From: Candidatus Gastranaerophilales bacterium
Lineage (GTDB): Bacteria; Cyanobacteriota; Vampirovibrionia; Gastranaerophilales; Gastranaerophilaceae
NCBI GenBank assembly: GCA_944323955.1
Contig: CALUUK010000004.1
Coordinates: forward strand, 1 to 64,000
Direction of reading: 5' to 3'
DNA: 64,000 nt
Shown: positions 8,642 through 60,934 of the stretch, one piece after another
Layout: every line of letters starts with the position of its first letter
Position numbering within the stretch: position 1 is the stretch's first letter
Position numbers and translations under genes: made by a program
The notes under the pieces: generated by a model
Seen by the model: the letters and a program-made list of their open reading frames with translations, nothing else
Database searches by the model: none
Told to the model about the DNA's origin: nothing

Positions 8642-8713
8642 AATTGTTTATGATATTATTATATTGCAGGTTATAATTATAATCAAATATGAAACTCACG
8701 AGAGGGCATAATA

Positions 8714-9739: not shown

Positions 9740-9750
9740 GAGACAAAATC

Positions 9751-10257: not shown

Positions 10258-11639
10258 TGAGAGTTTTAAAATCTAAAATATTTGATTGTATTAATTCCTT
10301 ATTGTTGTCCATAACTATGAAAACGGATGCAATAAGACAAAACAGTTTTATTCTTTCAAATATTGATTGGTATATTCTTACTGCAATTATTTTTACGCTT
10401 ATCATTTCAACAATTGCGCCTACGGAGACGATAGGAATTGTTTCTGTATCGGTTCCGCTTCTTGTTGTTTTGAAAGTGTTTATTACAAAATGCGAAAAAA
10501 TTGAATTAGACAGAGCTAATTTCTTTTTGCTTTTATATTTTCTTATCTGCCTTATTTCTAACTTTACATCTTCCATGATTCCTCAAAGTTTGTACGGATT
10601 TATGAAAACAAGCATGTATCTGGCTTTTTATTTTGCATTGTGTCAGTTTTTAAAAAGCAGTCCCAAATATATTAAATATATTTTGATTGTTATTGCCTGT
10701 CTTGTTTTTGCGGAAAGTTTTATTGGAATAATGCAGCATTTTGCCGGTGTTGAAAATATTTCCACATGGCAAGATACCAGTTATGTAAATCCGGAAGATG
10801 TTATATCAAGAGTATACGGCACTTTAAAACCATATAATCCTAATCTTTTTGCCGCATGGCTCATTGCAGCGCTTCCGTCAATCGGAATATTTACTGTTCT
10901 GAACGGATATAAAGGAAAGCTGTCAGGAAACAGATTTATTTGTTTTGTTGCGGCAGCTTTTATCTTCTTAACATCAATTCTTACAATATTCTTTACCGGC
11001 TGCAGAGGTGCATATATAGCTTTATTTATAATGTTTATTGCTTTTTTTACCGCTTCTTTTCAGATTATATTTGCAAATGGAGGATATAGGCATTTAAAAC
11101 AAATATGGCTGAATACGCTAATTGCTTCTCTGGCTGCGGGCATTGCGTTTCTTGTTGTTAATCATGGCATATTAAAAAGAATAATGTCCATATTTATTAT
11201 GAGAGCCGATTCGTCAACATCCTTCAGAATGAACGTATATTCTTCAGCCATTCAAATGTTCCGTGATAATTGGCTTCAAGGTATAGGGGTCGGTAATAAA
11301 GTTTTCCGCGAGATATACGGACTTTATATGTTATCGGGTTTTGATGCTTTAAGCTGTTATTGTGTTTTTCTTGAAATAGCGGTAGAAAGCGGAATTTTTG
11401 CACTTCTTGCATTTTTGTCGTTTTTAATAATTCTTCTTTACGACGGCATAAAAGCATTTATAACAAACAATAATTTATCCTCCAAAATACTTATATTTAT
11501 ATCGTTTGTATCTGTATCGGCCGTTATGGTTCACGGATTTGTAGATACGGTATTTTTCAGACCCCAGGTCCAATTTGTATTTTGGACAATGGCTGCAATA
11601 TTGTTAACTCTTACAAAGAAAGACATTAAGGATTACTAA
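10257..11639 (+). CDS. O-antigen ligase-like polytopic membrane protein (IctB type)
   Basis: The 460-residue protein has roughly ten or more hydrophobic segments and the Wzy/WaaL-type signature region. A large loop holds YGTLKPYNPNLFAAWL, followed by TGCRGAYIALF. Both resemble cyanobacterial IctB (first named for bicarbonate transport, but of the O-antigen ligase superfamily). A polysaccharide polymerase or ligase role is the better guess in an LPS-making heterotroph. It is coupled by TAATG overlaps to the DUF4330 gene and to sucC. Confidence 0.8.
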   Translation: MRVLKSKIFDCINSLLLSITMKTDAIRQNSFILSNIDWYILTAIIFTLIISTIAPTETIGIVSVSVPLLVVLKVFITKCEKIELDRANFFLLLYFLICLISNFTSSMIPQSLYGFMKTSMYLAFYFALCQFLKSSPKYIKYILIVIACLVFAESFIGIMQHFAGVENISTWQDTSYVNPEDVISRVYGTLKPYNPNLFAAWLIAALPSIGIFTVLNGYKGKLSGNRFICFVAAAFIFLTSILTIFFTGCRGAYIALFIMFIAFFTASFQIIFANGGYRHLKQIWLNTLIASLAAGIAFLVVNHGILKRIMSIFIMRADSSTSFRMNVYSSAIQMFRDNWLQGIGVGNKVFREIYGLYMLSGFDALSCYCVFLEIAVESGIFALLAFLSFLIILLYDGIKAFITNNNLSSKILIFISFVSVSAVMVHGFVDTVFFRPQVQFVFWTMAAILLTLTKKDIKDY

Positions 11640-12769
11640 TGAAAATACATGAATATCAGGCAAAAGAATTATTTAAACAATACGGTATTGAAGTTCCGTT
11701 TTCTGTATTATGTGAAAGCCGCGGGCAAATAGAGCAGGCAATAAAAAAAACAGGCGTGCCTTGTGTTATTAAAGCGCAGGTTCACTCGGGAGCGAGAGGA
11801 AAAGCGGGCGGTGTAAAACTTGCTAAAGACTTTCAAAGTGCCGTAAAATTTGCCGGTGAAATTTTGGGAATGGAGTTAAAATCTTCACAGGCAGGTATTA
11901 AAAAAGTTAATAAAATCCTGGTTGAGCAGGCAGTTTCTATTGAAAAAGAATTATATTTGAGTTTAACCTTTGACAGGACAAATGAATGTATTGCTTTTCT
12001 TGTATCTTCCTGCGGCGGTATGGATATTGAAGAAACCGCAAAAATATCTCCTGAAAAAATTCATACCTGTTTAATAAAAGATACATTTAATCCCGTAGAA
12101 ACAGTTAAGTGTCTCGGTTTTGAATCTGATATTACGGAAAAGATTGCACGCATTGCACAAAATCTTTATAATCTTCTGATTGAAAAAGATGCATCACTTG
12201 TGGAAATTAATCCTCTGGTTATAACCGGTAATAAAGAGGTGAAAGCACTGGATGCTAAAATCAATTTTGATGATAATGCTCTTTTCAGGCATGAAGACAT
12301 AATTGCATTAAAAGATGAACAAGAGGAAAATCCATACGAGCTGGAAGCGCAAAAGTACGGGTTAAATTATATAAAACTGGACGGGACAATCGGGTGTATG
12401 GTCAATGGGGCAGGCTTAGCCATGGCAACGATGGATGTTATACGTCTGGCGGGAAAAGATGCCGCTAATTTTCTTGATGTAGGCGGCGGAGCAAGCAGTG
12501 AAAAAATTGAAAAGGCTTTTAAACTTCTCATCTCGGATAGAAATCTTGAAGCTGTTTTCATTAATATATTCGGCGGTATTTTAAGATGTGACTTCCTTGC
12601 GGAAGGTGTTAAAAATGCAATTAAAACACTTGACGTAAAGTGCCCCGTAATTGTCCGGATGGAGGGCACAAATAAACAACAGGGAGCCGAAATTCTTAAT
12701 AATTCCGGACTTAGATTTACGGTAGTTAATGATTTGAATGAAGCAATTGAGGTTATAAAAAACATATAA
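11639..12769 (+). CDS. sucC: succinyl-CoA ligase, beta subunit
   Basis: The ATP-grasp subunit (376 residues) begins [12 protein letters not shown], has the nucleotide-binding stretch [17 protein letters not shown] and ends with the conserved [16 protein letters not shown]. With SucD it interconverts succinyl-CoA and succinate with substrate-level ATP/GTP formation. Its ATG shares one base with the stop of the membrane gene before it, and its own stop overlaps the sucD ATG. This is unusual company for a central-metabolism gene. Confidence 0.95.
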
Positions 12770-13638
12770 TGGCTATATTTATAAATGAAAATACAAAATT
12801 AATAGTTCAGGGAATAACCGGTAAAGAAGGTTCATTTCACGCAAAAAGCTGTCAGGAATACGGAACCAAACTGGTTGGCGGTGTGACTCCAAAAAAAGGC
12901 GGCAGCGAAATTTTGGGCGTTCCTGTCTTTAACAGTGTAAAAGAAGCAGTTAAAGAAACAATGCCTGATGCTTCAATGATTTTTGTACCCGCAAAATTTG
13001 CAGCCGGAGCCATTATTGAGGCTGCTGATGCCGGGGTGAAACTTATTGTTTGTATTACTGAAGGTATACCCGTTTATGATATGATTAAAGCGAAAAAGGC
13101 TGCAGCGGCAAACGGAGCAAGATTAATAGGGCCGAATTGCCCCGGATTAATTGTGCCAGAAAAGTCAAAAATCGGCATTATGCCCTCTTCCATACACAAA
13201 AAAGGTAATACCGGAGTTGTTTCAAGAAGCGGAACACTTACATATGAAGCTGTATATCAATTGACAAGGCTTGGCATAGGACAGTCTGCCTGCATAGGAA
13301 TCGGCGGTGATCCTGTTATCGGAACTAATTTTATTGATGTTTTAAAGGAATTTCAGGCAGACAGTCAAACACAAGCCATATGTCTGATAGGAGAAATAGG
13401 CGGCAGTGCGGAAGAAGAAGCTGCGGATTATATTAAAAATAACGTTACAAAACCCGTTGTAAGTTTTATAGCCGGATTAAGCGCACCTGAAGGAAAAAGA
13501 ATGGGACATGCAGGCGCGGTAATATCCGGCGGTAAAGGTACGGCTTCAAGTAAAATGAAGGCTCTTACCGATGCAGGTGTTTTTGTATGCAAAAATCCTG
13601 CTGATTTGGGACAAACAATAAAATCAGTACTTGTTTAA
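12769..13638 (+). CDS. sucD: succinyl-CoA ligase, alpha subunit
   Basis: This 289-residue CoA-binding subunit has the Rossmann opening [11 protein letters not shown] (11-21). The phosphohistidine is placed at H247 in RMGHAGA, equivalent to H246 in E. coli. The conserved GPNCPG (121-126) and [12 protein letters not shown] (208-219) are present. It is last in the four-gene overlapping chain from 9751 and is followed by a strong hairpin. No 2-oxoglutarate dehydrogenase genes are nearby, so it could run in either direction. Confidence 0.96.
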
Positions 13639-13652
13639 TCTAATCTGGTGTC

Positions 13653-13689
13653 GCAGTTTGTCGCCGGCGATGAGACGGCGACAAACTGC
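13653..13689. terminator. 14-bp perfect hairpin after sucD
   Basis: Arms 13653-13666 and 13676-13689 (GCAGTTTGTCGCCG and its exact complement) enclose a 9-base loop. The stem is GC-rich for this genome. There is no clean T-tract after it, so it may act as a transcript 3'-end stabiliser or a repeat-element hairpin rather than a classic terminator. Confidence 0.6.
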
Positions 13690-13802
13690 TCACCTTTGAC
13701 TTCTTTTGCCGAAATTTTAATTTCGTGCAAAATGTCTTCACCTTGTGAACAAGTTGCCACTCTCAAAAATTCACTCACGCCTTCGGCTTATCGTGAATTT
13801 TT
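13690..13802. repeat. hairpin cluster in the sucD downstream region
   Basis: After the sucD hairpin come CGAAAT/ATTTCG near 13709-13724, CTTGT/ACAAG near 13742-13753, and a 10-bp perfect stem AAAAATTCAC (13765-13774) with GTGAATTTTT (13793-13802) around a GCC-TTC-GGC mini-hairpin. The last stem runs into the final codons of the converging small gene. The arrangement looks like a mobile or dispersed intergenic repeat, but only one copy is in this window. Confidence 0.45.
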
Positions 13803-14066
13803 GTTCGGACAATTTTGAGGATGACTTTGCATAAAATCATCCGGATTAATTTTTTCTATGGCATTTTGTTCGCAGTTATTCCGGTTTGTTTTATCTTTGG
13901 ATGAAGTTACGGGCTGCATCATTGCCAGTTCCGCTTTTTGTTTTGCTTCTTCTCTCATTTGTGCATCTCTTGCCTGCTGTATTATGTCAGATAAAACAAG
14001 CTGCTGCGCATTTACACTGCCTGCGCATAAAACCGAAACGGTTATTAAGATAAAAAATTTCCTCAT
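13788..14066 (-). CDS. small exported protein
   Basis: It has 92 residues from the ATG at 14066, chosen because GGAGG lies 6 bases upstream and because it begins a clean Sec signal peptide (MRKFFILITVSVLCAGSVNA, cleavage before QQL). The mature part is charged and glutamine/alanine-rich, predicted helical, with two cysteines near the end. No family is recognised. The last residues are encoded by a hairpin arm, so the natural C terminus may have been altered by the repeat next to it. Confidence 0.65.
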   Translation of the reverse strand: MRKFFILITVSVLCAGSVNAQQLVLSDIIQQARDAQMREEAKQKAELAMMQPVTSSKDKTNRNNCEQNAIEKINPDDFMQSHPQNCPNKNSR

Positions 14067-14117
14067 ATTTCCTCCGTTTTTTACATTCTGCATAAAAAAG
14101 AGAAAATTTCTTATACT

Positions 14118-15128
14118 CTATCGGCTGATTAAATAGCGTTGTTTTAAATCAAGTACTTTTTGAACGGCGCGATTTATAATGCTTTCTGAAACAAAACCGT
14201 CATTTACGGCGGTTTCAAGCTGCGTAATTAAATCAAAAATCTCTTTTGAACTATCTCTGAAAATAAACATTGTTATACCTGCATTTAATGCTTTTATACA
14301 GGCATCAAGACGTGTAAAGCCTTTAATTCCGTTCATTTCCATATCATCTGTAATGATAATACCGTTAAATCCTAATTTTTTAATCAATATATCCGTAATA
14401 ATAGATTTTGATACAGATGCGGGAATAAGGCTGCAATCAAGCGAGGGGTATGCAACATGAGCTGCCATTATTGCAGGGATGTTAAGTTCTATTGCCTTTT
14501 TAAAAGGGTTTATATGGTCTTTCTCCAAATCATTATAAGATAATGTTATAACGGGAAGGCTTTTATGTGAGTCTTCACTTGCCGCTCCGTGTCCCGGAAA
14601 ATGTTTTCCCACGGTTATAATGCCGTATTTTTCATATTCTTTTATTACAACTTTTGATGCATTTATTACCTCTTCCGGGTTGGAAGAGAATGCTCTTTCT
14701 CCGATTATCGGGTTATTTTCATTCGTATTTACATCTAAAACCGGTGCAAAATTCATATTTATTCCGAAGCGTTTAAGTTCAAGTGCTATTTCTTTTGTTT
14801 GATTTTGAAGAAAAGAAAGTCCCATTTCATAAGCAGGTTTTGCGCTTAAGTATTTTTTGCCGCCGTGAATTTTTTCTGTTCTTTCAACTCTTCCGCCTTC
14901 CTGATCAATACTGAGAAAAAGAGGAAAAACAGCCTCCTTTGTAAGTTCTTCGGTTAATTTCTTTATTTGGGACTCTGATTTTATGTTATGCGTAAAAAAT
15001 ATTACTCCGCCGAGCCCGTTTTGCAGCATTTGCACAAAATACTTATTAAGACGATAATTTTCGCCGTTAAAACCCGTAATGAAAAGTTGTAAGATTTTTT
15101 GTCTTAAAGTTAAATCTTCTGCTTTCAT
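14118..15128 (-). CDS. nagZ: beta-N-acetylhexosaminidase, GH3 (NagZ-like)
   Basis: NagZ removes N-acetylglucosamine from muropeptides in peptidoglycan recycling. The protein (336 residues, no signal peptide) has DQEGGRVER (75-83), KHFPGHG (175-181) and the Asp-His loop SEDSHKSLP (184-192). The likely nucleophile Asp is in IITDDMEM (D261). All are diagnostic of GH3 hexosaminidases. An AAGG site precedes the ATG. The gene starts 1 base after the stop of the GH13-like gene, so the two are coupled. Confidence 0.93.
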   Translation of the reverse strand: MKAEDLTLRQKILQLFITGFNGENYRLNKYFVQMLQNGLGGVIFFTHNIKSESQIKKLTEELTKEAVFPLFLSIDQEGGRVERTEKIHGGKKYLSAKPAYEMGLSFLQNQTKEIALELKRFGINMNFAPVLDVNTNENNPIIGERAFSSNPEEVINASKVVIKEYEKYGIITVGKHFPGHGAASEDSHKSLPVITLSYNDLEKDHINPFKKAIELNIPAIMAAHVAYPSLDCSLIPASVSKSIITDILIKKLGFNGIIITDDMEMNGIKGFTRLDACIKALNAGITMFIFRDSSKEIFDLITQLETAVNDGFVSESIINRAVQKVLDLKQRYLISR

Positions 15129-15129
15129 A

Positions 15130-17418
15130 TTACCTTTTTATCTTAAATATTCTAAATTCTGACGGATTAAGTTTTTCAATTTTGATTGTTTTCTTATCTC
15201 CCGAAACAAAATGTTCGACGAAGTCTTTTTTATCTTCTTCCCATATATATTCGGAATATAAAATATAATCGCCCGGTATTTCAACTTTTTTATCAGTTAC
15301 TGCTTTATTATTTTTTATTGCATATTCCATAATGCCTTCGGAATTTTGTTTAAGAATTTTCTCATTTTCGGGAAGATAATTCGCTGTGATAATTAAACAT
15401 TCTTTGACTGTTTCTTTTGAGATCATCCAGCTTACAAATCCGTTTTTATTCTGGTTAATGATTTGTGCTTCGCCGTCAATTGTCAGTTCGTTATTAACTG
15501 CTAAACGTCTTATTGCATCAAACTTATCATAAAATTTTTCATCATCATTGCGTATCAAAGAAACTTCATCCTGTATTGTTGCTTCAATGCCGTCTTTCGA
15601 GAACGATTCATCTCCGTCTACATACATACATGGACGGTGCGCAAATTTTCCTCCGGGTAAAAATTTGATTTTAAACCACTTAAACAATGCTTCATCTCTG
15701 TCCATAAGTCCCAGATATCTGTTAACGCTTCTAAATTCGCCGTCTTGATTGTTGTAAGTTTTTAAAACGCTTATAAAAGAGTTTTTGTAAACAGAACTGT
15801 TATAATCTTGAATTTCACGATTATTAGCTATAACTTCAGATGGAATTTTTTCATAATCAGTTTTTGTGTCATTACCCCATAAAATATCAAAACCCATATC
15901 TTGATGATATTCTTTAAAATATGAATTCCATAATCTGTATTCTGCCATGGAAGCAAAATGAGGGACTCTTTTCTTTAATATCTCATTTGCTTTTTTCAAT
16001 ACAAATCTCGGGGCTCTGTAACTGATAGGCCGCAAATCCTTTTCGCTCATTGAATCTACGACAAAATCGGTGTGAGTAAATCTCATACCGTCAAAATTAT
16101 AATCTTCCTGTACTGCCTGTAAATAGTTTAAATAGAAATTTATTACGTTAAGATTATAGTCTCCGTTTTCAAGATATACAAAGTAAAACGGTGTCTGACA
16201 GTCTGAGTCTGCATATTTTGAAACATCTCTGCCGTTTGCATCATAGTGGGTAAAACAAGGATAGCTTCCGCATTCTGCCATTTTCTCAAACACGGGAATT
16301 CCGCTGGAACACCATGCTCCGTCAGGAAGAGTCCATAAACCTTCATCGATAAGTTTACTCAGAGCTTCCCCCCTTTTTAATATATCTGAATCCGATTTTA
16401 TTTTTGAAGGTTTTGTATTATGAACTCCGGCAACAATTTCTCTTACACGCTTTTGCAGTTTTATTTGTTCTTCTTTTGTTGTCATTATATCGGAGAGTTG
16501 TTTTTTCTTGTCCTTTAATTCTTCGGTAAACCTGTCGTAGATGGGTTTAAATTCCGAAGATAAATCAACAGAGCCGCTTTTAAGCGTTGTTTTATATATA
16601 TTTCTTACTATTGTGACATCATCTTCATCAAATTCCGAGGAAAGTTTTGCTGCAACATCATTTAATGATTTTGAAATCTCATCGCTTAAATATTTAACAT
16701 CAATCCATCTTGCAATTTCAGGGTGTGCAAGTACGGTTTTTGAAAATCTTCCTGTTTGCGGAAAAACGTCATATATAACGGGATGTCCGGCCAGTTGTGC
16801 CAGCCATATAAACATCTGCACCTGCTTCTTAGCATTAATGCCCGCTTCTTTTAATTTTTCATCCGCTAATTTCTCACTTACTTCTTCGGTACTCTCAATT
16901 AGATATGCATTCCCGAACTCTCTCGGATGAAACGGAACCAGATAAATTGTTGTTGAAAGAATTCCTTTTTTCATGTTGCCGGACGGTAATATAATTATTT
17001 GTCTGAGCCAGTCAATAAACTTTGCGGGACTTGGGTCTTTTGTTCCGTCTCCGAGTGCGGCAAGGTTTACCAGTTTTACGTCATGCTGTTCTCTTTTTAT
17101 CCAGTCTCCGTCAGTGTAACCTGCTCTTTTTACTGCACTTATATATTCGTCTTGTACACAAATATCGCTATCGTATGTAAGATTTAGTTCCAATTTCTTT
17201 TCAAGTGCATATATTACTTCCTCCGGAGTTAATTCTTCTATTGCTCTCATTTGTGAATAAGGAAGGTAACCGTATTTTTCAATTAAGTCTCCGAGTTCTT
17301 TTTTCCTTTCGGCACTTATATTTTGATTACAATAAATCTCTTTTATCTTTTTATATAAAGATTTTATTATGTCGGTTTTTTTTATTTGTTCTTTTTTAGG
17401 AAACAGAAAATCAAACAT
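15130..17418 (-). CDS. large GH13-like (alpha/beta)8-barrel protein
   Basis: This 762-residue cytoplasmic protein resembles distant GH13 glycosidases. QMFIWLAQLAGHPVIYDVFPQTGRF (201-225) fits the strand-3 region, DGMRFTHTDFVVDS (443-456) fits the GxRxDxxxxV nucleophile region, MAEYR (491-495, E493) could be the acid/base strand, and a beta-rich C-terminal domain ends the protein. At the nucleophile position Thr (T448) stands where Asp is expected, so activity is uncertain. A coiled insertion covers 290-330. A good GAGGTG site precedes the ATG. It is coupled to nagZ. Confidence 0.6.
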   Translation of the reverse strand: MFDFLFPKKEQIKKTDIIKSLYKKIKEIYCNQNISAERKKELGDLIEKYGYLPYSQMRAIEELTPEEVIYALEKKLELNLTYDSDICVQDEYISAVKRAGYTDGDWIKREQHDVKLVNLAALGDGTKDPSPAKFIDWLRQIIILPSGNMKKGILSTTIYLVPFHPREFGNAYLIESTEEVSEKLADEKLKEAGINAKKQVQMFIWLAQLAGHPVIYDVFPQTGRFSKTVLAHPEIARWIDVKYLSDEISKSLNDVAAKLSSEFDEDDVTIVRNIYKTTLKSGSVDLSSEFKPIYDRFTEELKDKKKQLSDIMTTKEEQIKLQKRVREIVAGVHNTKPSKIKSDSDILKRGEALSKLIDEGLWTLPDGAWCSSGIPVFEKMAECGSYPCFTHYDANGRDVSKYADSDCQTPFYFVYLENGDYNLNVINFYLNYLQAVQEDYNFDGMRFTHTDFVVDSMSEKDLRPISYRAPRFVLKKANEILKKRVPHFASMAEYRLWNSYFKEYHQDMGFDILWGNDTKTDYEKIPSEVIANNREIQDYNSSVYKNSFISVLKTYNNQDGEFRSVNRYLGLMDRDEALFKWFKIKFLPGGKFAHRPCMYVDGDESFSKDGIEATIQDEVSLIRNDDEKFYDKFDAIRRLAVNNELTIDGEAQIINQNKNGFVSWMISKETVKECLIITANYLPENEKILKQNSEGIMEYAIKNNKAVTDKKVEIPGDYILYSEYIWEEDKKDFVEHFVSGDKKTIKIEKLNPSEFRIFKIKR

Positions 17419-17446
17419 AGTACACCTCAGCCAAACACTAACATAC

Positions 17447-17507
17447 TTAGATTATATTATTGAATAGGCCATGAACGCAAGAATATTAATCTAAAGATTT
17501 AGATTAA
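17447..17507. promoter_or_regulatory. operator-like palindrome between divergent genes
   Basis: A perfect inverted repeat with 10-base arms TTAATCTAAA (17486-17495) and TTTAGATTAA (17498-17507) and a 2-base centre lies between the GH13-like gene and the AMIN-like gene. A further half-site TTAGATTA lies at 17447-17454. This is the form expected of a dimeric repressor site, but no cognate regulator is identified. Confidence 0.4.
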
Positions 17508-17588
17508 TTTATAAATCATTTGATTGATGTTTTAATCTCTTAAAATCTCTAAAATATACTAAAGGATATTTGGGTCATTGGAGATTTA

Positions 17589-18293
17589 ATGAATATAAGA
17601 ATAGAATACGGTATTATAAAAAAATTTCTTCTTTTATTTTTTATATTTGTGTTTTCCGCACTGAATGTGCAGGCTCAAAATGCGCTTTCTTCGGTAAGCG
17701 TAAGTCAAACTGCGGGCAATTCTTATAATATAACTTTAAAAACTGACGGTTCTGTCAGAATAAAAAAATATGCCGAATCGGAGAATAATCTGCTTTTGGT
17801 TTTAAATTCCGTAGTTCCGGCTGATTCAGTTGAAATAGTATATGATAATGCATCGGGACTGGAAAATGTTATTGTCCAAAAAAAGAATGATAATAATACG
17901 ACAATTTTATTTCAGGGAAAAAATGTAGAGAATTCTAAAATATTCGTTAAAGAACTTTCTACCGGACTCTTAAAACCCTTTGATTCAAATACTTTGAGTG
18001 ATTATTTGTATATAGAAAATATTAAGTATTTTTCTTATGCATTTTCTGTCATAGTAGTTCTTTTCCTTATGATGATTTTATTCAGACCCGGATATAAAGT
18101 ATATAAATCAAAACAAAAAGTGTCCAAAAAAACAATACAAAATTCTCAAACGTTAAGAACAAAACAATATACGGCAAAGAGATATATTCCTTCAATAAAT
18201 TATAAGGTATCCGTACAAAAAAGAAATATGACAATACCTAAAGACTTTGTTATTTCAAACCATATGGAAGAAAAAATCAGAAAAGCCGGATAA
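17589..18293 (+). CDS. membrane protein with AMIN-like beta domain
   Basis: The protein has an N-terminal signal or anchor (residues 8-30, ending NVQAQ), a beta-rich periplasmic domain of about 100 residues, a transmembrane helix (about 146-166) and a basic cytoplasmic tail of about 65 residues. The beta domain alternates short hydrophobic strands in the manner of AMIN domains of PilQ and cyanobacterial envelope proteins. That match is by pattern only. A GGAG site lies before the ATG. It may be co-transcribed with the STAS gene 62 bases downstream. Confidence 0.6.
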   Translation: MNIRIEYGIIKKFLLLFFIFVFSALNVQAQNALSSVSVSQTAGNSYNITLKTDGSVRIKKYAESENNLLLVLNSVVPADSVEIVYDNASGLENVIVQKKNDNNTTILFQGKNVENSKIFVKELSTGLLKPFDSNTLSDYLYIENIKYFSYAFSVIVVLFLMMILFRPGYKVYKSKQKVSKKTIQNSQTLRTKQYTAKRYIPSINYKVSVQKRNMTIPKDFVISNHMEEKIRKAG

Positions 18294-18355
18294 TTTACTG
18301 CACGCTATTGCATAAATTTAAAAATAGTATTAACATTATTTTATGCAACAAATGA

Positions 18356-18661
18356 ATGAGTATTTTTATGCAGTTTGTAAAAGCGTCGGAAGTATTTAAA
18401 AATATAAGAAATCTTTACAATAGTGAATTTGAATCGGCTAATGATATTATGCTTGATTTCTCCAATATTGATAATATTGATTTCAAAGGAATATCAGCTC
18501 TTCTGGACATACAAAAAGTTGCTTTGATGAACCATAAGTCTGTCACATTAAGTAATGTTGCTCCTTCGGTAAGAAACATTCTTGATATTACCGGGCTTAA
18601 TAAAACATTCTCAAAAATTGTAACAGACCCAGTTTCAAGAAAGCGGAGTTATGACAGCTGA
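18356..18661 (+). CDS. STAS-domain protein without phosphorylatable serine
   Basis: This 101-residue protein is a single STAS (anti-sigma antagonist-like) domain. MLDFSNIDNIDFKGISALL (32-50) matches the core strand-loop-helix. The Ser normally phosphorylated after the Asp is absent; the loop reads D-F-K-G (42-45). NVAPSVRNILDITGLNKTF matches the C-terminal half. It is probably a constitutive partner-binding module. Its end overlaps rsmI by 11 bases. M5 (18368) is an alternative start. Confidence 0.75.
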   Translation: MSIFMQFVKASEVFKNIRNLYNSEFESANDIMLDFSNIDNIDFKGISALLDIQKVALMNHKSVTLSNVAPSVRNILDITGLNKTFSKIVTDPVSRKRSYDS

Positions 18662-19466
18662 TTTCTATATTGTGGCAACTCCTATCGGGAACCTCTCAGA
18701 TATTACGTACAGGGCGGTTGAGGTTTTGAAAAAAGTTGATTATATTGCTTGTGAAGATACCCGTGTTACACGAATTCTTTTGGATAAATATGAAATATCG
18801 GCAAAGACATTTGATTGCCATAAATTTAATGAAAAACAACGTGCGGAAAAAATAATAAGTCTTTTGCGGGAAGGCAAATCTGTTGCTCTTGTTTCGGATG
18901 CGGGTACTCCTTTAATATCCGATCCGGGAAGCGAGCTTATACGTTTATTACTTGAAAATGATATTAATATAATATCTGTTCCCGGTGCGTGTGCCGTGAC
19001 GGCTTTTTTGACTTATCTTCCGCGCAGGTCTGAAGAATATGCATTTATCGGATTTATTCCCCGTGTAAAAAAACAGCAAATTGAAATTTTAAATAAGTAT
19101 AAATATACAAACTGTGTGTTTTACGAATCTCCTAACAGACTGTCGGAAACACTTGAAAATATTAAAGCTGCCTTTGGGGAGGAAACAAAAATTGCCGTCG
19201 GACGCGAGCTTACAAAAGTATTTGAAGAAGTAAAAATTGCTCCTGTCCGTGAAATAATAGATTATTATAAAACACATCCTCTTAAAGGAGAAATAGTTGT
19301 AATGGTTTTTGCAGGTGAGAACCGGGATCCGGAAGAGAATGATATAATACAAAAAATAACAGCCTTAAAAGAAGAAGGTTATTGTGATAAAGATATTTCC
19401 GTAATTATTTCAAAATTATTCGGCATTTCAAAAAATAAAGTTTATAAACTTTCTATTGAAAATTAA
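18651..19466 (+). CDS. rsmI: 16S rRNA C1402 2'-O-methyltransferase
   Basis: RsmI uses SAM to methylate the ribose of C1402 in the 16S rRNA decoding centre. The 271-residue protein opens YIVATPIGNLSDITYRAVE, then CEDTRVT, SDAGTPLISDPG and VPGACAVTAFL, all hallmarks of the YraL/RsmI tetrapyrrole-methylase fold. The C-terminal small helical domain (ISVIISKLFGISKNKVYKL) is present. It overlaps the STAS gene, implying translational coupling. Confidence 0.95.
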   Translation: MTADFYIVATPIGNLSDITYRAVEVLKKVDYIACEDTRVTRILLDKYEISAKTFDCHKFNEKQRAEKIISLLREGKSVALVSDAGTPLISDPGSELIRLLLENDINIISVPGACAVTAFLTYLPRRSEEYAFIGFIPRVKKQQIEILNKYKYTNCVFYESPNRLSETLENIKAAFGEETKIAVGRELTKVFEEVKIAPVREIIDYYKTHPLKGEIVVMVFAGENRDPEENDIIQKITALKEEGYCDKDISVIISKLFGISKNKVYKLSIEN

Positions 19467-28232: not shown

Positions 28233-29420
28233 ATGACGGATTTAGCTACAAAGAAAGATATAAGGACGATTAACGGAGCTGATATAGCCATAGGCTATCA
28301 GTGGTTTTATACTAATTTGTACAAAAAATTGGTTGAAAACAGTGAAAAATTCTTTGGCAGACCCTTTTCAATACGTTTTATGGGCGTATCAAGTGATGAA
28401 AATATTCTGTTTTACGGCGATGAATATTTTGTAAATAAATTGCCGATAACATCTTCGGCTGACTTTAACGTGAAAATTTCGGCAGATGTAATAAAATTTT
28501 TACTCGACGAAGCACTTGGTGCTTCTGAGAATAAATTCAATCTTAATAATCTTACGGATATTGAAGCCGGAGTTATAAAATCTTATATTATTCGTTTATA
28601 CAAAGGTGTTCAGGAAAATCTGGTAAAACAGGAACTTCCGAAACAACTTGTTCAAAATTATGAAAATCTTAATTTTACGTTCTTTATCAGAGAAGGGGAA
28701 AAACATATAGGTAAAATTATATTTCGTATTCCCGAATATGTAATACCTAAGATTGAGCCTGCTAAAAGAAATGAGGTATTTTCAATAGATGATTTTAAAA
28801 CTACAAAAGCGCTTTTGAAATTAAAGCTCGGAAGCACAAAAATATCTTTGACGGATATAAAAAACATAGAGAACGGCGATATTATAGTGCTTGAGAACAG
28901 TAATATAAATAAAATGTCGGTAGTATGGAAAGATGCGGAAACGCAGTTTAATATAAACCCCAACCCGTCATTAATAATAAGTATTAACAGTAACGGAGGC
29001 AATGAAATGGAAGAAGAAACAAGTACAAAATCTCAAAATATGTGGGATTCTATCCTTGTTGACGTAGTTGCGGAATTTGATAACGTTAAATTAACACTCG
29101 GGGAATTAAAACAAATTTCTGAAGGTTTGGTTATTGATGTCGGATCCGTATATGAAAATAAAATAAAATTACGGGTAGAAAATCAAATTGTGGCAACGGG
29201 CGAGCTCGTTATATTAAATGACAGATACGGTGTAAGAATAGAAGAAGTGAAAAAAAGCAAAGAAATAAAAAGTTCAAAACAAGCTGATGCCGCACCGCAA
29301 GCAAAGAAAGCCGCCGCAGCGCAGCCCCAAGCAAAAAAAGAAAAACAACCTGACAGTGCAAAACAAGGTGATGAAAACTTTGATTATTCGGATTTTGAAA
29401 TTGAAGACGAAAGTATTTAA
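28233..29420 (+). CDS. FliM/FliN-like switch protein with two SPOA domains
   Basis: This 395-residue protein carries a FliM-middle-like region (about 15-175, with LTDIEAGVIKSYI at 107-119), a first SPOA domain (about 190-252, LKLGSTKISLTDIKNIENGDII) and a canonical FliN-type SPOA (272-340). A Lys/Ala/Gln-rich disordered tail ends DYSDFEIEDESI. This is a FliM-FliN fusion or SctQ-like C-ring protein. It heads the fliO-P-Q-R cluster and an AGGG site precedes the ATG. Confidence 0.85.
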   Translation: MTDLATKKDIRTINGADIAIGYQWFYTNLYKKLVENSEKFFGRPFSIRFMGVSSDENILFYGDEYFVNKLPITSSADFNVKISADVIKFLLDEALGASENKFNLNNLTDIEAGVIKSYIIRLYKGVQENLVKQELPKQLVQNYENLNFTFFIREGEKHIGKIIFRIPEYVIPKIEPAKRNEVFSIDDFKTTKALLKLKLGSTKISLTDIKNIENGDIIVLENSNINKMSVVWKDAETQFNINPNPSLIISINSNGGNEMEEETSTKSQNMWDSILVDVVAEFDNVKLTLGELKQISEGLVIDVGSVYENKIKLRVENQIVATGELVILNDRYGVRIEEVKKSKEIKSSKQADAAPQAKKAAAAQPQAKKEKQPDSAKQGDENFDYSDFEIEDESI

Positions 29421-29428
29421 GGATGCAT

Positions 29429-29764
29429 ATGAACACTTATATTATGAATTTTATAGTTTATACCTTTGCAATGATAGGCTTTTTGCTGATGGTTTTATTT
29501 GTATATAAAAAAGCTGTCTATAGTGCACCTGTTAAGAATAATAAAAATATACTTAATGTTGAGACGTCAATGAAATTGTCTCCGACAAAAACAATATATG
29601 TAATAAATGCAGGAAAAGAAAGATTTTTGATTGCGGGAGATACCGCAAATACCACAATGCTTGCAAAACTTGAGAATACGGATTTTGAACCGGGCAATTT
29701 TTCTGCAAATACACTGCAGCGTCAGGAGGAAATCCTGCACACGACATCGGATAGTAAGAGGTAA
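29429..29764 (+). CDS. fliO: flagellar biosynthesis protein FliO
   Basis: It has one N-terminal transmembrane helix (about 8-27) then a small cytoplasmic domain with KLSPTKTIYVINAGKERFLIA, the FliO pattern. FliO helps assemble the FliP ring and is specific to flagellar rather than injectisome systems. ATG 29429 (111 residues) has AAGGA 5 bases upstream; ATG 29423 is the alternative. It lies between the FliM/N gene and fliP. Confidence 0.82.
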   Translation: MNTYIMNFIVYTFAMIGFLLMVLFVYKKAVYSAPVKNNKNILNVETSMKLSPTKTIYVINAGKERFLIAGDTANTTMLAKLENTDFEPGNFSANTLQRQEEILHTTSDSKR

Positions 29765-29767
29765 AAA

Positions 29768-30409
29768 ATGGAAGCATTATTAAAAGATTTAAGTCCCGTA
29801 CTTCAACTGTTGGCAGTAATGGCAATGTTCTCAATGCTGCCGTTTATGTTCGTTTGTATGACGAGTTTTCTGAGGTATGCAATTGTTTTCGGATTTTTAA
29901 AACAAGCGCTCGGTGCCCAGCAAATACCACCTGCTATAGTTCTTGTAGGTCTTTCAATGATATTGACTTTCTATACTATGGCTCCCGTATTTCAACAAAT
30001 GTATGAAGTAGGTTCTAAACCATATCAGGAATCAGGTTCAATGGTTCTTGCAATATCCGAAGGTTCAAAACCGTTGAAAGAATTTATGCTTAAACAAACA
30101 AGAGAACAGGATTTGGCATTTTTTGTACAACTTGCAAGAAAAGAAGCTCCCGAAAGTGTTGAAGATATTACAATATGGGAAGCAGCTCCCGCTTATATAT
30201 TAAGCGAACTTAAAACTGCTTTTGAAATCGGATTTATAATTTTTATTCCGTTTATTGTTTTGGACCTTGTTGTTGCAAACGTATTGTTAGCATTGGGGAT
30301 GTTTATGTTATCTCCGACAATTGTTTCTTTGCCGTTTAAACTGCTGATATTTATAGCTGTTGACGGCTGGGGGCTTGTTGTGAACGGACTTGTAGGCAGT
30401 TATAACTAA
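29768..30409 (+). CDS. fliP: flagellar export gate protein FliP
   Basis: FliP forms the core ring of the export gate with FliQ and FliR. The 213 residues include MTSFLRYAIVFGFLKQALGAQQIPP (31-55), LSMILTFYTMAPV and the terminal LPFKLLIFIAVDGWGLVVNGLVGSY. All are strongly conserved. It lacks the signal peptide found in many FliP proteins and is close to SctR in length. It starts 3 bases after the fliO stop. Confidence 0.95.
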   Translation: MEALLKDLSPVLQLLAVMAMFSMLPFMFVCMTSFLRYAIVFGFLKQALGAQQIPPAIVLVGLSMILTFYTMAPVFQQMYEVGSKPYQESGSMVLAISEGSKPLKEFMLKQTREQDLAFFVQLARKEAPESVEDITIWEAAPAYILSELKTAFEIGFIIFIPFIVLDLVVANVLLALGMFMLSPTIVSLPFKLLIFIAVDGWGLVVNGLVGSYN

Positions 30410-30418
30410 GGGTTATTT

Positions 30419-30916
30419 ATGGAAATTTTAATAGAATATTTTGCAAAAGGTTTGATGACAATGCTTATGATAACGATGCCGTGTGTATTGACCGCAGCGG
30501 CTATCGGTCTTATTGTTGGTATTTTGCAGGCTGTTACTCAGGTTCAGGAACAAACGATAGCCGCTGCTCCTAAAATTTTTGCCGTATTTCTTGTTATTAT
30601 TTTGCTTGGAACCGGATATTTAAGGCTTTTAACCAATCTTTTTCATGAAGGCTCATCCATTGCATTTAATGTAATTCCTAAAAATGACGCATTTGTTTTG
30701 CCTGCGGATTATTATAATTATACAAAACCGTTTATTGATGAAATGAAAACGGATTATAAAAAAGATATGGTTCCGATGTCAACGATTTTAAATTCCCCGT
30801 CAAGAACTATGGGAAATGATAAAAAAGACAGATTCAGCGTTTTAAGAAACGGTGCGGTTGAAGTTCCCGCTCCGAATCTTGTTGAAAGAAAAACCATAAT
30901 GGAAAACAGAAGATAA
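30419..30916 (+). CDS. fliQ: export gate protein FliQ with C-terminal extension
   Basis: Residues 1-90 are a normal FliQ with two membrane helices (MPCVLTAAAIGLIVGILQAVTQVQEQT, then IFAVFLVIILLG). FliQ is usually about 90 residues; here a further 75 or so, hydrophilic and predicted disordered (ending LVERKTIMENRR), follow in frame. The extension would lie beyond the second helix. AAGGG precedes the ATG. It is part of the fliO-P-Q-R run. Confidence 0.93.
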   Translation: MEILIEYFAKGLMTMLMITMPCVLTAAAIGLIVGILQAVTQVQEQTIAAAPKIFAVFLVIILLGTGYLRLLTNLFHEGSSIAFNVIPKNDAFVLPADYYNYTKPFIDEMKTDYKKDMVPMSTILNSPSRTMGNDKKDRFSVLRNGAVEVPAPNLVERKTIMENRR

Positions 30917-30931
30917 TTTCGGTAAGATAAA

Positions 30932-31714
30932 ATGCTAGATACTATTTTAACAGAGTTTCCTAAATATTTTCCCGAAATAAACGGAGCCTTGGCTGCGGGA
31001 GTTCCCGTTTTTGCAAGAGTTGCCGGATTGATGAGAGCAACACCGTTTTTAAAGAGAACAGAAATTCCTACGATTGCAAAAATAGGATTTGCTTTTATAT
31101 TTACGGTAATGCTGTGTATGTTTTTAAAACCTGCTCCGCCTACAAATGAAGTGTCGATGTTATATTCCATAATTGTTAATTTTATATGCGGTGCAATAAT
31201 AGGGTTTGTAATTAATTGTATTATTCAGGCGATTGAAGCCGGAGGTGATATGATTAACAGCCAGCAAGGTTTAACCGCAGCGACGATTATGGATCCTTCA
31301 AGTTCTTCTCAGGTCTCTATTATGGGGAAAATATTCGGTATTCTGGCAATTATAATTTTTCTGCAAATAGGCGGAGCTTATTGGACTTTTAACGCGTTTA
31401 TAAGAAGTTTTGAAATATTTCCTATATATTCATACGCTATTCCGCTTGACAGTATAATAAATATGCCTTATCTCGTGAAGATTACTTCAAATGTTTTATA
31501 TGTAGGATTACAAATAGCCTCACCGGTTCTTATTGCTACTTTGGGACAGGATATTATACTCGGGGTTATTAACAGAACCGCCCAGCAGGTTCCGGTTTTT
31601 CAGATGAGCTTTATGTTTAAGCCGGGGCTCGGTGCCGTAATTTTAGTTATTATTATGCCTAATATGCTTAATATTATTGAAGATTATTTCCTGTCGTTTT
31701 CAAATATATTTTAA
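30932..31714 (+). CDS. fliR: export gate protein FliR
   Basis: This 260-residue multi-helix membrane protein completes the FliPQR gate. FARVAGLMRATPFLKRTEIPTIAKIGFAF, AGGDMINSQQGLTAATIMDPSSSSQ and FQMSFMFKPGLGAVIL are FliR hallmarks. Neither flhB nor a full-length flhA follows, unlike many flagellar loci. It ends 8 bases from a converging small gene. Confidence 0.94.
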   Translation: MLDTILTEFPKYFPEINGALAAGVPVFARVAGLMRATPFLKRTEIPTIAKIGFAFIFTVMLCMFLKPAPPTNEVSMLYSIIVNFICGAIIGFVINCIIQAIEAGGDMINSQQGLTAATIMDPSSSSQVSIMGKIFGILAIIIFLQIGGAYWTFNAFIRSFEIFPIYSYAIPLDSIINMPYLVKITSNVLYVGLQIASPVLIATLGQDIILGVINRTAQQVPVFQMSFMFKPGLGAVILVIIMPNMLNIIEDYFLSFSNIF

Positions 31715-56192: not shown

Positions 56193-57146
56193 ATGAGAGT
56201 TAATTCAGTAACACCCGTCAATATTTACCCCCGTCCGGCCATAAGCGCAGGCGCGGATTTCAGGGAGAGAAAAAGTGCGTACGAACATAAGAGCGAAGAA
56301 CGAGAAAATACAAATCAAATAAACACGACCATCAGAGAGAATTCTGATGGTCGTGTGAGTTTTAAGGGCGGTGCACCGCTTCTTCATAAAGCTGCAACCT
56401 TTGCAGGAAACAACCCTCTTGTTGCGGAAGCATTGTTTGCCATATTGGTAACATGCGGATTAAGACCGATTACAATTCTTGCAACAGCAAAAAGCGATGA
56501 AGAAAAGGAAAAATGTTCATATCAGGCAGCAAAGTCAATATCCTCCGGCGTTGTAGGGCTTGGAATGACCGCATTGGTCGGTACTCCTATTGCAGCTGCG
56601 GTTAAAAAAGCGTCCGAAAAGAAAGCATTTGATATTCCTCCGGAAATGAAGGCTAAATCGGAAGAAATTGTTAAAAAAGGAGTCGATGCACTCCAAAATT
56701 TAGCGAAGAAAGAGGGCGGCGAAATTTCGGATCTGATTACTAAATTAACTAAAGAAAGCGGTAAACTGAATCTGAAAGTGTTTACAAAGAAGGGTGCAGA
56801 GTCACAACAGGCATTTATTCAGAAAGTATCCGAGAAGTCGCCGGAAATTGTTGAAACGGTTGAAAAAGCCATAAAAGAACAAAGAATTATTAATAACTTT
56901 ACAGATACCGGAAAAAATGTAATGAACAAATTGTTCCAGCCTGTATTTATGCCGCTGAGAGCAATGGTTACGATTGCAATGGTGCCTGTTCTTTTAAATT
57001 TGCTGGGATTGAAAAAACCGGCTAAAAAACAACCGCCGGTACTTGAACAAAATCCTCAGATAGTGCTTAACTATAATGTCTTCCAAACTGACAACGAGAA
57101 AGAGCTTTTTAAATCTTTTGCGGAGGTGACAAAACATGAAAATTAA
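56193..57146 (+). CDS. unknown membrane protein with SFKG motif (pair member 1)
   Basis: The 317-residue protein begins MRVNSVTPVNIYPRP, has a polar segment to about 50, then VSFKGGAP (53-60). Two hydrophobic stretches lie near 70-95 and 108-130, a long charged helical region at 135-240, and another hydrophobic stretch near 250-272. The motif and layout recur in the next gene, so the two are probably paralogues. The part coding residues 44-55 contains a perfect 14-bp hairpin. Function unknown. Confidence 0.65.
   Translation: MRVNSVTPVNIYPRPAISAGADFRERKSAYEHKSEERENTNQINTTIRENSDGRVSFKGGAPLLHKAATFAGNNPLVAEALFAILVTCGLRPITILATAKSDEEKEKCSYQAAKSISSGVVGLGMTALVGTPIAAAVKKASEKKAFDIPPEMKAKSEEIVKKGVDALQNLAKKEGGEISDLITKLTKESGKLNLKVFTKKGAESQQAFIQKVSEKSPEIVETVEKAIKEQRIINNFTDTGKNVMNKLFQPVFMPLRAMVTIAMVPVLLNLLGLKKPAKKQPPVLEQNPQIVLNYNVFQTDNEKELFKSFAEVTKHEN
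56323..56356. repeat. perfect 14-bp inverted repeat inside a coding region
   Basis: Arms 56323-56336 (ACACGACCATCAGA) and 56343-56356 (its exact complement) enclose 6 bases. It lies about 130 bases into the pair-member-1 gene and stays in frame. It could pause transcription or translation, or be a small inserted element. Confidence 0.7.
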
Positions 57147-57741
57147 TGCCGTAACACAAAATTATAATTTTAAAAATAATGCAAATTTATCAAATAATAA
57201 AAAGCATTCGAATCCGTCTTTTTCCGGTGCCGCACCTAAGCCTTTGGTTAACGGACTTTCGACTTTTTATGAAAAAGTTGCTTCATCAAAAGGTTTTCAG
57301 GGCTTTATAAAAAAATTCAGCAACTCTGACAGAACTTTTACTCATATAATGGTTGCAGAAAGTGTTCTGTTATCAGGTTTTTATATGCTTAATACTTTAA
57401 GCAATAAAAAAATTGAAAAAGAACAGAAACCTCAAATGCTTATTAATGATACGTTAACATTGGGAGTATCGGCGGCAGGTGCATACTTGCTTGACGATAA
57501 AGTTTCAAAGGCGGTAAAAACCATTACGGATAAATTTATGGACAAACACAAAGATTTTTATAGCTCGGCAGAAAATGCTTCAACTTTCAGAGCAGGTATG
57601 AGCAAGTTAAAAACCATAGTTATATTCGGAATGATATACAGATATCTGGGACCTGTTTTAATTACTCCATTGGCAAATAAACTGAGTTCCAAGTTCTTTA
57701 ATAATCCAAAGGAATCTGAAAAAACACAGGATAAAAAATAA
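57136..57741 (+). CDS. unknown membrane protein with SFSG motif (pair member 2)
   Basis: The 201-residue protein begins MKINAVTQNYNFKNN, then SFSGAAP (28-34), matching SFKGGAP in pair member 1. Its hydrophobic segments (about 74-90, 108-122, 160-182) and a VAES block correspond to VAEA in the partner, with EKE and AVK blocks at similar distances. It overlaps the first gene by 11 bases with GGAGG upstream. The two proteins likely act together. Function unknown. Confidence 0.65.
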   Translation: MKINAVTQNYNFKNNANLSNNKKHSNPSFSGAAPKPLVNGLSTFYEKVASSKGFQGFIKKFSNSDRTFTHIMVAESVLLSGFYMLNTLSNKKIEKEQKPQMLINDTLTLGVSAAGAYLLDDKVSKAVKTITDKFMDKHKDFYSSAENASTFRAGMSKLKTIVIFGMIYRYLGPVLITPLANKLSSKFFNNPKESEKTQDKK

Positions 57742-57758: not shown

Positions 57759-57796
57759 AAAATGAGGCAGCATATGCTGCCTCATTTTTCTTTTTA
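57759..57796. terminator. bidirectional terminator
   Basis: A 15-bp palindrome (arms 57759-57773 and 57774-57788, with core ATGAGGCAGCAT) is flanked by A-rich and T-rich tracts. It closes the paired membrane genes and the converging FlhA_C-like gene, whose stop is at 57794. Confidence 0.9.
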
Positions 57797-59257
57797 TATA
57801 ATACTTATTATTTGAAGCGGATAATCAAATATTAATTCTTCCCGTGCAACAACTCTTATATTAGGAATCATTTGAGAAAGAATTAAAAATATTAAATGCC
57901 TTATTTTCATTGGTGCAATAAGTATAATTTCCTTTGTATCAGGTGTAAATTCATTAACCTTTGCCCTGATTTTATCGGCAATTTCCGTTATTTTATTGCT
58001 TTCAATTCTTATAACATCATCATCAGTTTTATCACCGGTAAAGGATTTTAGACTTTCTTTTGATAATTCATAAGCATATATTGTTTTATTTTGTTCATCG
58101 GTGAGTGAACTTGATATTTGTCTTGCCAGAGAAATTCTTATTCTTTCCAAAAGTTCTTCTTTGTCCGTTTCATCTGCAAAGTCATTTATTTTTTCAAAAA
58201 TATAAACAATATCTTTAATTGATACTTTTTCTTTGATTAAACTTGCGAGAATATATTTAAGTTCAGCAACGGACAGATAATCAGGAATAATATTTTCAAT
58301 AAGATAAAGGTTTTGATTTCCGACAACTTCAATATATCTGTTTATATCGGAGTAATCAAAAAGATCATCTATATATTTAGTTACGGTATATTCAATTACT
58401 TTTGCAATATAATCCGTTGCGTCAAGTCCTTTTGTCCAGAAGTCTTTTGCAAGTTCGGAATCAATCCATACGATTTCGGCGCCGGTTGTAGGGTCTGTCT
58501 GTTCTATTGAATCTTCGGGCATTTTTTCAATATTCAGTTCGTTTTTAAAGAACATTAAATGAGAATTGTATGCCTTTGAATTGAAAGCGGGGATTCCTCT
58601 TACTTTGATTGAAAATTCATTTTCTTCAAGAGCATCATCTATTTCTATTTTTATTTTTGGAATTATATATCCTAAAGAGTCTGTTAAACTTTGTCTTATG
58701 AGAACGATTCTTGATAATATATTGAATTCATTGTCATTATCAAGTATGTCAATAAGTTCTTCAGATATGGCAAGAGTAATTTTTTGTTCTCCGAGTTTTT
58801 TCTCCATTATGTCCGGCGTAATTACCTTAGCCAATTGCCGTTTAAGTTCATCAATTTCATCAATAAGTTTTGAGATTTCACTGTTCAGCATAGCTCTTGA
58901 ATCTTCTGATGTCTCATCTATTAAAGATTTTACCTGAGCCATTCTCATTCTTTTTTCTTTAATTTTCTTTTGAATATCAATACATGTTTCAAAAGGATCA
59001 AGTTCCGGGTTTATAATTCTTTCTATCCTTGATTTGAAATTTAATAAATCTGATGTTTCATCGAGACTTGTATCTTCATTTTCCGTTTCCTTAATAAAGA
59101 TACAGTTATAGTATATACCGTCATCATTTTCCATTTCCTGAATTGAATATACATCCCAGCCGTCTTTTGACATTGTATTTAAAAGATTTTCAAGTTTTTC
59201 ATTATCATTGAACGGAGATGTTCTGATTGTATAAATATTTCTTGTCGGTCTGTACAT
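57794..59257 (-). CDS. soluble FlhA C-domain-like protein with DUF4177-like N terminus
   Basis: Residues 160-487 match the FlhA/SctV cytoplasmic domain from end to end: LIDIL...LSRIVLIRQSLTDSLGYIIPKIKIE, SIKVRGIPAF, DPTTGAEIVWID, a central YLSVAELKYILASLIKEKVSIKDI, LLERIRISLARQI, and a final APMKIRHLI...PNIRVVAREEL. The N-terminal FlhA membrane domain is absent. Instead residues 1-57 resemble DUF4177 (LLNTMSKDGWDVYSIQ) followed by a coiled linker (90-150). GAGGAT precedes the ATG. It is second in an operon with the gene at 59302. Confidence 0.75.
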   Translation of the reverse strand: MYRPTRNIYTIRTSPFNDNEKLENLLNTMSKDGWDVYSIQEMENDDGIYYNCIFIKETENEDTSLDETSDLLNFKSRIERIINPELDPFETCIDIQKKIKEKRMRMAQVKSLIDETSEDSRAMLNSEISKLIDEIDELKRQLAKVITPDIMEKKLGEQKITLAISEELIDILDNDNEFNILSRIVLIRQSLTDSLGYIIPKIKIEIDDALEENEFSIKVRGIPAFNSKAYNSHLMFFKNELNIEKMPEDSIEQTDPTTGAEIVWIDSELAKDFWTKGLDATDYIAKVIEYTVTKYIDDLFDYSDINRYIEVVGNQNLYLIENIIPDYLSVAELKYILASLIKEKVSIKDIVYIFEKINDFADETDKEELLERIRISLARQISSSLTDEQNKTIYAYELSKESLKSFTGDKTDDDVIRIESNKITEIADKIRAKVNEFTPDTKEIILIAPMKIRHLIFLILSQMIPNIRVVAREELIFDYPLQIISII

Positions 59258-59301
59258 ATCAAATCCTCTTTTTGTGATTGTACTAATAATAACATATATT
59301 A

Positions 59302-59847
59302 TTATTTTTGTATTATACCTGTTGCGTATTTTCCGTTATGTTTATATTTGAGAAGATAGTATCCTTTTCCCGAATCCAGAATTTGCGCGAAAGATTCTGC
59401 GGCTGCACGTTCTTTAAATGCGATAAGGTCTTCTTCTGCCTTTCTGTAATCTTTCAATTTTTTCTTCTCCTGAGCGGTTTTGAGTCTGCCTATTATTTCA
59501 TCTTCTTCTCTAAGTTCTTCTTGTGTATACATTTTTTCGACAAGTTTAACAATTTTGACTCTGGCAATTATTTTGTTGCTTTGATATAGTTCCAGGTATT
59601 TTAAATCTTGTGAAATTGCGACCATATAGTATCCGTAAGGAATTTCATTTCCATAACTGTCATATAGATTGCACGGAAGAGTTAAGTTCGGATATTCGCT
59701 TGATTCAGGGCCGAATTTGTATTGTGTTTTATCACTTTCATATACGCCTGCGGGATAAAATGGCGCCGGATAGTGCCTGTCAATCCCGTTAAAATCAGTC
59801 ATAAAATCATATGAAATTAAATCAGCATCAACAATCATAGTATACAT
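59302..59847 (-). CDS. unknown beta-domain plus coiled-coil protein, partner of the FlhA_C-like gene
   Basis: The 181-residue protein has a beta-rich first part (20-105; [16 protein letters not shown]), a charged coiled segment (110-155) and a short [13 protein letters not shown] tail. No family is recognised. It lies 44 bases upstream of the FlhA_C-like gene on the same strand. An extended -10 abuts the first ATG (59847), so the ATG at 59838 (178 residues) may be the true leaderless start. Confidence 0.6.
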
Positions 59848-60520: not shown

Positions 60521-60934
60521 ATGAAAGTATCATCAATCGGAAATTATAATGTCGGATTTTCAGCCGCTGTGGCAAAGAAAATTACAAGTGAAGATATAAA
60601 TCGTTATTATAACGCTCAAATCCGTCCATTGGAAATCCAACGTGATTCGTTGCTGCAGTTGGATTCTTTTATGGATAGTGATTTCGTCAAAAATTGCATG
60701 AAAAAACTGCCGAAAGAAGACGAACTTTATATTGATTGCAGAAATTTGGATATAAATGATACTCATCTTCTTTATAATCCCGCAAATAAAAAAAGTATGG
60801 CCAAATTTGAGTCGATTCCCGTGGATGATGCTATGGAAAAGGTTTTGCATAAAACCGAGCTCAAAAACGGACAATTGGATGTTGACGGTATTGCAAAATG
60901 GCTGAGTAATCTTGTGGATTTTCTTGGCAAATAG
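60521..60934 (+). CDS. unknown small protein with YNVGF signature
   Basis: The 137-residue protein begins MKVSSIGNYNVGFSAAVAKK, closely matching MKITNIPKYNVGFF of the PHP-like protein. The rest is soluble, mixed helix and strand (EDELYIDCRNLDINDTHLLYNP), with no catalytic pattern I recognise. An AGAGG site precedes the ATG. It lies between clpP and ffh and has no clear promoter of its own. Confidence 0.65.
   Translation: MKVSSIGNYNVGFSAAVAKKITSEDINRYYNAQIRPLEIQRDSLLQLDSFMDSDFVKNCMKKLPKEDELYIDCRNLDINDTHLLYNPANKKSMAKFESIPVDDAMEKVLHKTELKNGQLDVDGIAKWLSNLVDFLGK

Follow-up and report, generated by a model that had tools for sequence, protein, structure and literature searches.

FlhA is regarded as a membrane protein with a homomeric cytoplasmic ring. 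The window, that is, the whole 64,000-nucleotide stretch of Candidatus Gastranaerophilales DNA analysed here, carries on its minus strand a gene (57794..59257) that raises the question of what the cytoplasmic domain of this protein might do when it is encoded without the membrane half. On profile and fold evidence, the 487-residue product is certainly a homolog of the full FlhA cytoplasmic domain (FlhA_C). Residues 141-475 align with positions 321-652 of the 657 positions in the Pfam FHIPEP profile (PF00771; E=1.2e-51), residues 147-487 align with 334-678 of 678 in the TIGR FlhA model, the SctV model matches likewise, and the top PDB match by sequence is FlhA_C of B. subtilis (7.4e-26). An AlphaFold model built on 55 orthologs (pLDDT 82.5) superposes on FlhA_C, and its top 50 PDB matches are exclusively FlhA_C and SctV_C structures, with 6ch2 at E=1.2e-23 and a TM score by target of 0.79. 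The profile search and the structural comparison bear out the first-pass annotation, which had recognised an FlhA/SctV cytoplasmic domain and had named a structure prediction that fails to superpose on FlhA_C as grounds for abandoning this identity.

The gene, for which no strand had been given before, runs from an ATG to a TAA stop, and the ribosome-binding site that had been described as good is AGAGGA, directly before the ATG (59264..59269, minus strand). All parts of the protein are accordingly read on the minus strand. An N-terminal head (residues 1-66, 59060..59257) is connected to FlhA_C by a helical coil in the predicted structure (residues 86-145, 58823..59002) and by a segment that aligns with the FlhA_L linker and bears the same P-x-x-M signature as the full-length paralog (residues 146-157, 58787..58822). 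The remainder is a complete cytoplasmic domain, D1-D4 (residues 158-487, 57797..58786), supported by profile, PDB sequence match and fold match. Within it, we take the domain boundaries to be those of the Salmonella FlhA structure, which places the D2 region at residues 231-276 (58430..58567); the ring-forming D3, with a VSIKDIVYIFEKI motif conserved in the family alignment, at residues 298-376 (58130..58366); and D4 at residues 377-487 (57797..58129). Conservation across the family is highest in the head and D3; D4 is among the least conserved parts and ranks last of the structured domains.

The eight-helix membrane domain is missing, as first described. No convincing transmembrane stretch was found in the 487 residues, the membrane domain is likewise absent from all orthologs, and no in-frame membrane domain precedes the gene, a stop codon intervening 26 codons 5' of the ATG. 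The absence of the membrane half would fit a decaying flhA fragment or an assembly artefact, a reading to which we give practically no weight: the same architecture recurs in seven families and, by profile, in 98/98 genomes of the order, dN/dS is low, and an intact full-length flhA is found elsewhere in the genome. Because about 80 orthologs, representing all seven families of the order examined, share the start and the architecture, a sequencing error is excluded, and with it, given the upstream stop, a membrane domain that error correction might have restored. A pseudogene was rejected on order-wide conservation, selection and the upstream stop.

The distribution of the gene was assessed in an even sample of the class, comprising 98 Gastranaerophilales genomes and 96 genomes from other orders, with a profile (A2) restricted to the head and coil. 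The profile matched all 98 Gastranaerophilales; among the 96 genomes from other orders, it was absent except for one 58-residue match to the coil, yet 42 of these 96 do carry FHIPEP proteins. A survey within the order found the protein in 32/34 genomes of the same genus and in 21/22 from other families, the three genomes without it being 83-85% complete. Most of the named relatives belong to Candidatus Gastranaerophilales; among close relatives is Ca. Avigastranaerophilus, at 76% identity. The gene is under strong purifying selection, with dN/dS against congeners of about 0.04-0.13, synonymous sites (dS) being saturated in these comparisons. A phage origin was considered and dropped, comparison of the family alignment with viral contigs having yielded no relative.

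The surroundings of the gene offer little guidance. It stands alone, unlinked to any export gene. The 181-aa open reading frame located 44 nt upstream (59302..59847, minus strand) is a neighbour only within the genus among the genomes compared, and its product matched no Pfam family. No gene was common to all 17 neighbourhoods compared, synteny ending at the genus level, so that a guess at function from operon context was abandoned for want of a shared neighbour beyond the genus. The first-pass annotation had placed the gene far from fliPQR, which needs correcting: a cluster of export gate and C-ring genes (fliMN-like, fliO, fliP, fliQ and fliR; 28233..31714, plus strand) lies within the window at a distance of about 27 kb. 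These genes are part of the flagellin-less system that is the presumed partner apparatus. The cluster itself sits outside any flagellar operon with flhA.

Checking the gene content of the genome family by family, we located the full-length flhA (701 aa), whose existence had been left to be checked, on contig C1, which is not the contig of the window, in the order flgF, flgG, flgB, flgC, lytic transglycosylase, fliE, fliF, fliG-like, fliH, flhA, fliI. This basal-body operon spans 8433-18787 (locus L036, G000:C1), and the Pfam FliG profile gives its FliG-like protein a very poor score. The same contig carries flhB, and flagellin was not detectable in this genome. Co-occurrence with flagellar genes, surveyed across the order, separates two kinds of FlhA. 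Flagellin occurs in only 23/98 sampled Gastranaerophilales, 22 of which also have a canonical second FlhA (about 870 bits) that is found in none of the flagellin-less genomes of the order. A divergent FlhA-2 (about 720 bits) is present in 97/98, motile or not. The soluble protein, present in 98/98, thus tracks FlhA-2 and not motility, although within a single order partnership and shared ancestry would give the same pattern of co-occurrence. FliP and FlhB, too, are each present twice in the two flagellin-bearing members that we examined. The partial flagellar gene sets of these genomes have been interpreted as insufficient for a functional flagellum and as a result of flagellar loss (Soo et al. 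2014; PMC4040986). In motile members, however, the divergent set accompanies a second set of canonical type, so that it has the look of an independent machine that is being maintained, and what the flagellin-less genomes keep would be a system in its own right and not just the relics of a flagellum.

The origin of the soluble protein was addressed with a tree of the cytoplasmic domains of FlhA proteins, read with canonical FlhA as the outgroup. The soluble proteins form one clade (support 100/100). This clade attaches to the FlhA-2 of the order, and branches with supports of 99/95 and 96/93 separate the two from all canonical FlhA and from the FlhA-2 found in other orders. Because the soluble family adjoins the divergent FlhA-2 of its own order, it appears to be a duplicate without the membrane half, and the simplest reading is that FlhA-2 was duplicated on the stem of the order and that one copy then dropped this half. 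By mean identity over the same eight species, which is 38% for the soluble protein compared to 77% for FlhA-2, the soluble copy has evolved much faster and more freely.

The residues that were kept and lost during this divergence bear directly on function. In Salmonella FlhA, the chaperone pocket comprises D456, F459 and T490, of which F459 and T490 are required for chaperone binding, and linker residues E351, W354 and D356 contact the neighbouring subunit and stabilise the ring (PMC8166844); the linker has been observed in the groove of the neighbour in whole rings (PMC8213127). We compared an alignment of 26 soluble homologs, 9 FlhA-2 and 8 canonical FlhA, using E. coli numbering (692 aa). 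Position 459 is F in 8/8 canonical FlhA and Y in 9/9 FlhA-2 but is aromatic in none of the 26 soluble proteins, the window protein having T at this site, in the D2 region. Position 490, which in the alignment falls in D1 directly after the D2 region, is T in all canonical FlhA and FlhA-2 (8/8 and 9/9) and in 0/26 soluble proteins. Furthermore, all 26 have S or N in place of G368, a residue that does not vary in canonical FlhA or FlhA-2, and H491 is changed in most. W465 and R391 are retained, as is the P-x-x-M linker signature, which is found in 9/9 FlhA-2 and in 22-24 of the 26 soluble proteins. Because F459 and T490 are lost throughout while the linker and D3 are kept, canonical chaperone docking by the soluble protein is unlikely. 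The linker motif and D3 are conserved, a nonameric ring would be putative, and the picture that emerges from the alignment is of a protein that could still offer ring contacts but would not receive chaperones in the usual way.

This picture weakens the main suggestion of the first-pass annotation, in which the soluble copy would act as a decoy or sorting platform, capturing canonical complexes of chaperone and substrate in competition with FlhA. In favour of a decoy, the equivalent of D456 is present in 25/26 soluble proteins and no part of the fold is lost, the D1/D2 region included. Against this stand the replacement of both residues needed for chaperone binding in Salmonella, in a family whose full-length paralog keeps Y and T at these positions, and the lack of flagellin in three quarters of the carriers; we consider a decoy highly improbable. 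The other roles that had been proposed, namely that the protein caps or regulates the gate or serves a different ring, may apply, with the qualification that the relevant gate would be that of the flagellin-less system universal in the order, where the soluble protein is universal too.

The reading that we prefer, with a probability of roughly 0.45, is a role as soluble accessory subunit in this flagellin-less apparatus, in which the protein would dock on, cap or mix into the FlhA-2 ring. Under this model, flhA-2 of a flagellin-less basal-body/type III export system would have been duplicated in the ancestor of Gastranaerophilales, and the duplicate would have shed its membrane half and acquired a coil and a DUF4177-like head. 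The resulting cytosolic protein would dock on, cap or join the FlhA-2 cytoplasmic ring by way of the linker and the nonamer-building surfaces of D1 and D3, and because its own chaperone pocket is presumably dead, the contact would be one-sided. The head and coil would then bind a partner or a substrate and so set which cargo reaches the gate, or when. We infer the partnership with FlhA-2, the insertion into the ring and the binding role of the head. The lack of linkage to export genes, the neighbourhood that is not conserved past the genus and the faster evolution compared to FlhA-2 count against an accessory subunit.

The same observations lend weight to the main rival, a free cytosolic ring or scaffold that would be cut off from type III export and have its own function, with FlhA_C as nothing more than an oligomerising platform for the head. 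A stand-alone gene without synteny to export genes, the low identity across species and the lost chaperone pocket would all be expected of such a scaffold. The restriction of the protein to an order in which just one sampled member lacks the flagellin-less export system would not, nor would the retention of an FlhA-2-type linker motif in a protein that is not tethered to the membrane, and we regard a free scaffold as a serious but on balance unlikely possibility.

The head is of interest under either reading. Residues 5-59 are predicted to form a beta-alpha-beta-beta fold, and L26, N27, M29, G33, W34, Y37, E41 and F54 are invariant in the family. The DUF4177 assignment (PF13783) made from the sequence is only partly sustained. 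The window head scores 15.7 bits, under the Pfam cut-off of 25 bits, and, unlike DUF4177, is fused to FlhA_C; the predicted fold agrees, DUF4177 is the commonest weak match of the family heads (16/19 members, best E=1.4e-4), and the heads carry a GWEL-type motif, a conserved G-W-E/D-L/V strand in line with DUF4177. The label is therefore weak but consistent. A fold search for the function of the head gave no significant match (best E=0.027), and we recognised no DUF4177 structure among the matches. The nearest of these non-significant matches (E 0.03-0.1) are the oligomerising domains of KCTD5 and dodecin, which would suit a free scaffold. The conservation of the head, with its eight invariant residues, would instead suit a narrower form of the accessory subunit, namely a substrate- or signal-specific adaptor whose head recognises a cargo or regulator and whose FlhA_C provides the ring contact. 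Given that the literature searched offered no function for DUF4177-like domains and that no cargo is known, we consider this narrower form improbable.

The soluble protein is not the only FlhA_C derivative in these genomes. The present genome also encodes a 509-aa protein that combines two membrane helices with D1-D3 (contig C9) and a 216-aa stand-alone derivative (contig C2), and further derivatives of 210-430 aa occur in genomes G144, G020, G013, G199, G227 and G047. Eight of the 11 miniature proteins that were aligned have no D2 and most have no D4, whereas D1 and D3 remain, in keeping with the idea that what is useful is the ring core, D1-D3. Stand-alone derivatives of 210-510 aa were seen at L038 (5471-7000, minus strand), L039 (6850-7500, plus strand), L191, L194, L195, L197, L198, L199 and L034; they are patchy across genomes, with several copies in G227, and some have two N-terminal membrane helices. 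Conceivably, the FlhA-2 ring is modular, with the universal soluble FlhA_C protein and a changing set of D1-D3 miniatures inserting into it or capping it and thereby setting cargo specificity, but we hold this extension of the accessory-subunit reading to be doubtful. In one genome (G144; L171, L191; 99% complete), the soluble protein, FliP, FlhB and rod genes are present together with a 296-aa FlhA_C derivative that is 39% identical to FlhA-2, and neither a full-length FlhA nor FliF was found, which may reflect an assembly gap. This genome may thus retain the soluble protein without FlhA, which would speak for a free scaffold and against an accessory subunit; as proof that the protein outlives FlhA, it is undercut by the concurrent lack of fliF and of the flanking DNA. 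In another genome, a 420-aa frame (L252, G120:C1:46710-47216) shows weak similarity to FliF residues 55-230 (E=3.8e-10), a normal fliF being present elsewhere, and this frame is perhaps a FliF-derived paralog as well.

Compared to known FlhA/SctV proteins (PF00771), the window protein shares the complete D1-D4, W465 and R391, and with the FlhA-2 of the order it shares the linker P-x-x-M. It differs in having no membrane domain or proton path, in its new head and coil, in being encoded by a lone gene, and in the changes at F459, T490 and G368, found in all 26 soluble proteins, and at H491, found in most. Judged by its sequence, it lacks two defining traits of FHIPEP, the membrane domain and an intact chaperone pocket. 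To our knowledge, no type III system has been reported to have an FlhA ring that is mixed or interchangeable, and a search of the open-access literature, which leaves subscription papers aside, found no description of a soluble, membrane-free FlhA paralog. There is a precedent in which the cytoplasmic domain of a membrane protein of the export gate also exists as a separate protein, namely FlhX (HP1575) of Campylobacterota, a soluble homolog of the FlhB C-domain. FlhX is listed among secretion-system proteins (PMC9321776); unlike the window protein, it is FlhB-derived, short and of an unrelated fold. The retention of flagellar-type export parts without a swimming flagellum also has parallels, in the FliI, FlhA and FliF relics of Chlamydia pneumoniae (PMC2830194) and the basal bodies of Buchnera (PMC8109811), but the chlamydial FlhA retains its membrane domain and no soluble FlhA paralog is known to have been described in either organism. 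Our results suggest that a secretion apparatus kept even without a flagellum has a helper not described before, and they point to the presence, in common gut bacteria, of an export apparatus without flagellin. An order-wide, membrane-free paralog in which the pocket is erased and the ring parts are kept amounts to a natural test of ring roles beyond chaperone docking.

A minor observation concerns possible cargo signals. As an export signal, a short motif at the N-terminus that closes with F-x-G or a like sequence is only a guess, and it showed no clear enrichment in the order compared to other lineages of the class. It is seen in three proteins encoded near the gene on the plus strand of the window (56193-57146, 57136-57741 and 60521-60934), with the instances NPSFSGAAPKP, VSFKGGAP and VGFSA, and like N-termini recur in Gastranaerophilales and related orders.
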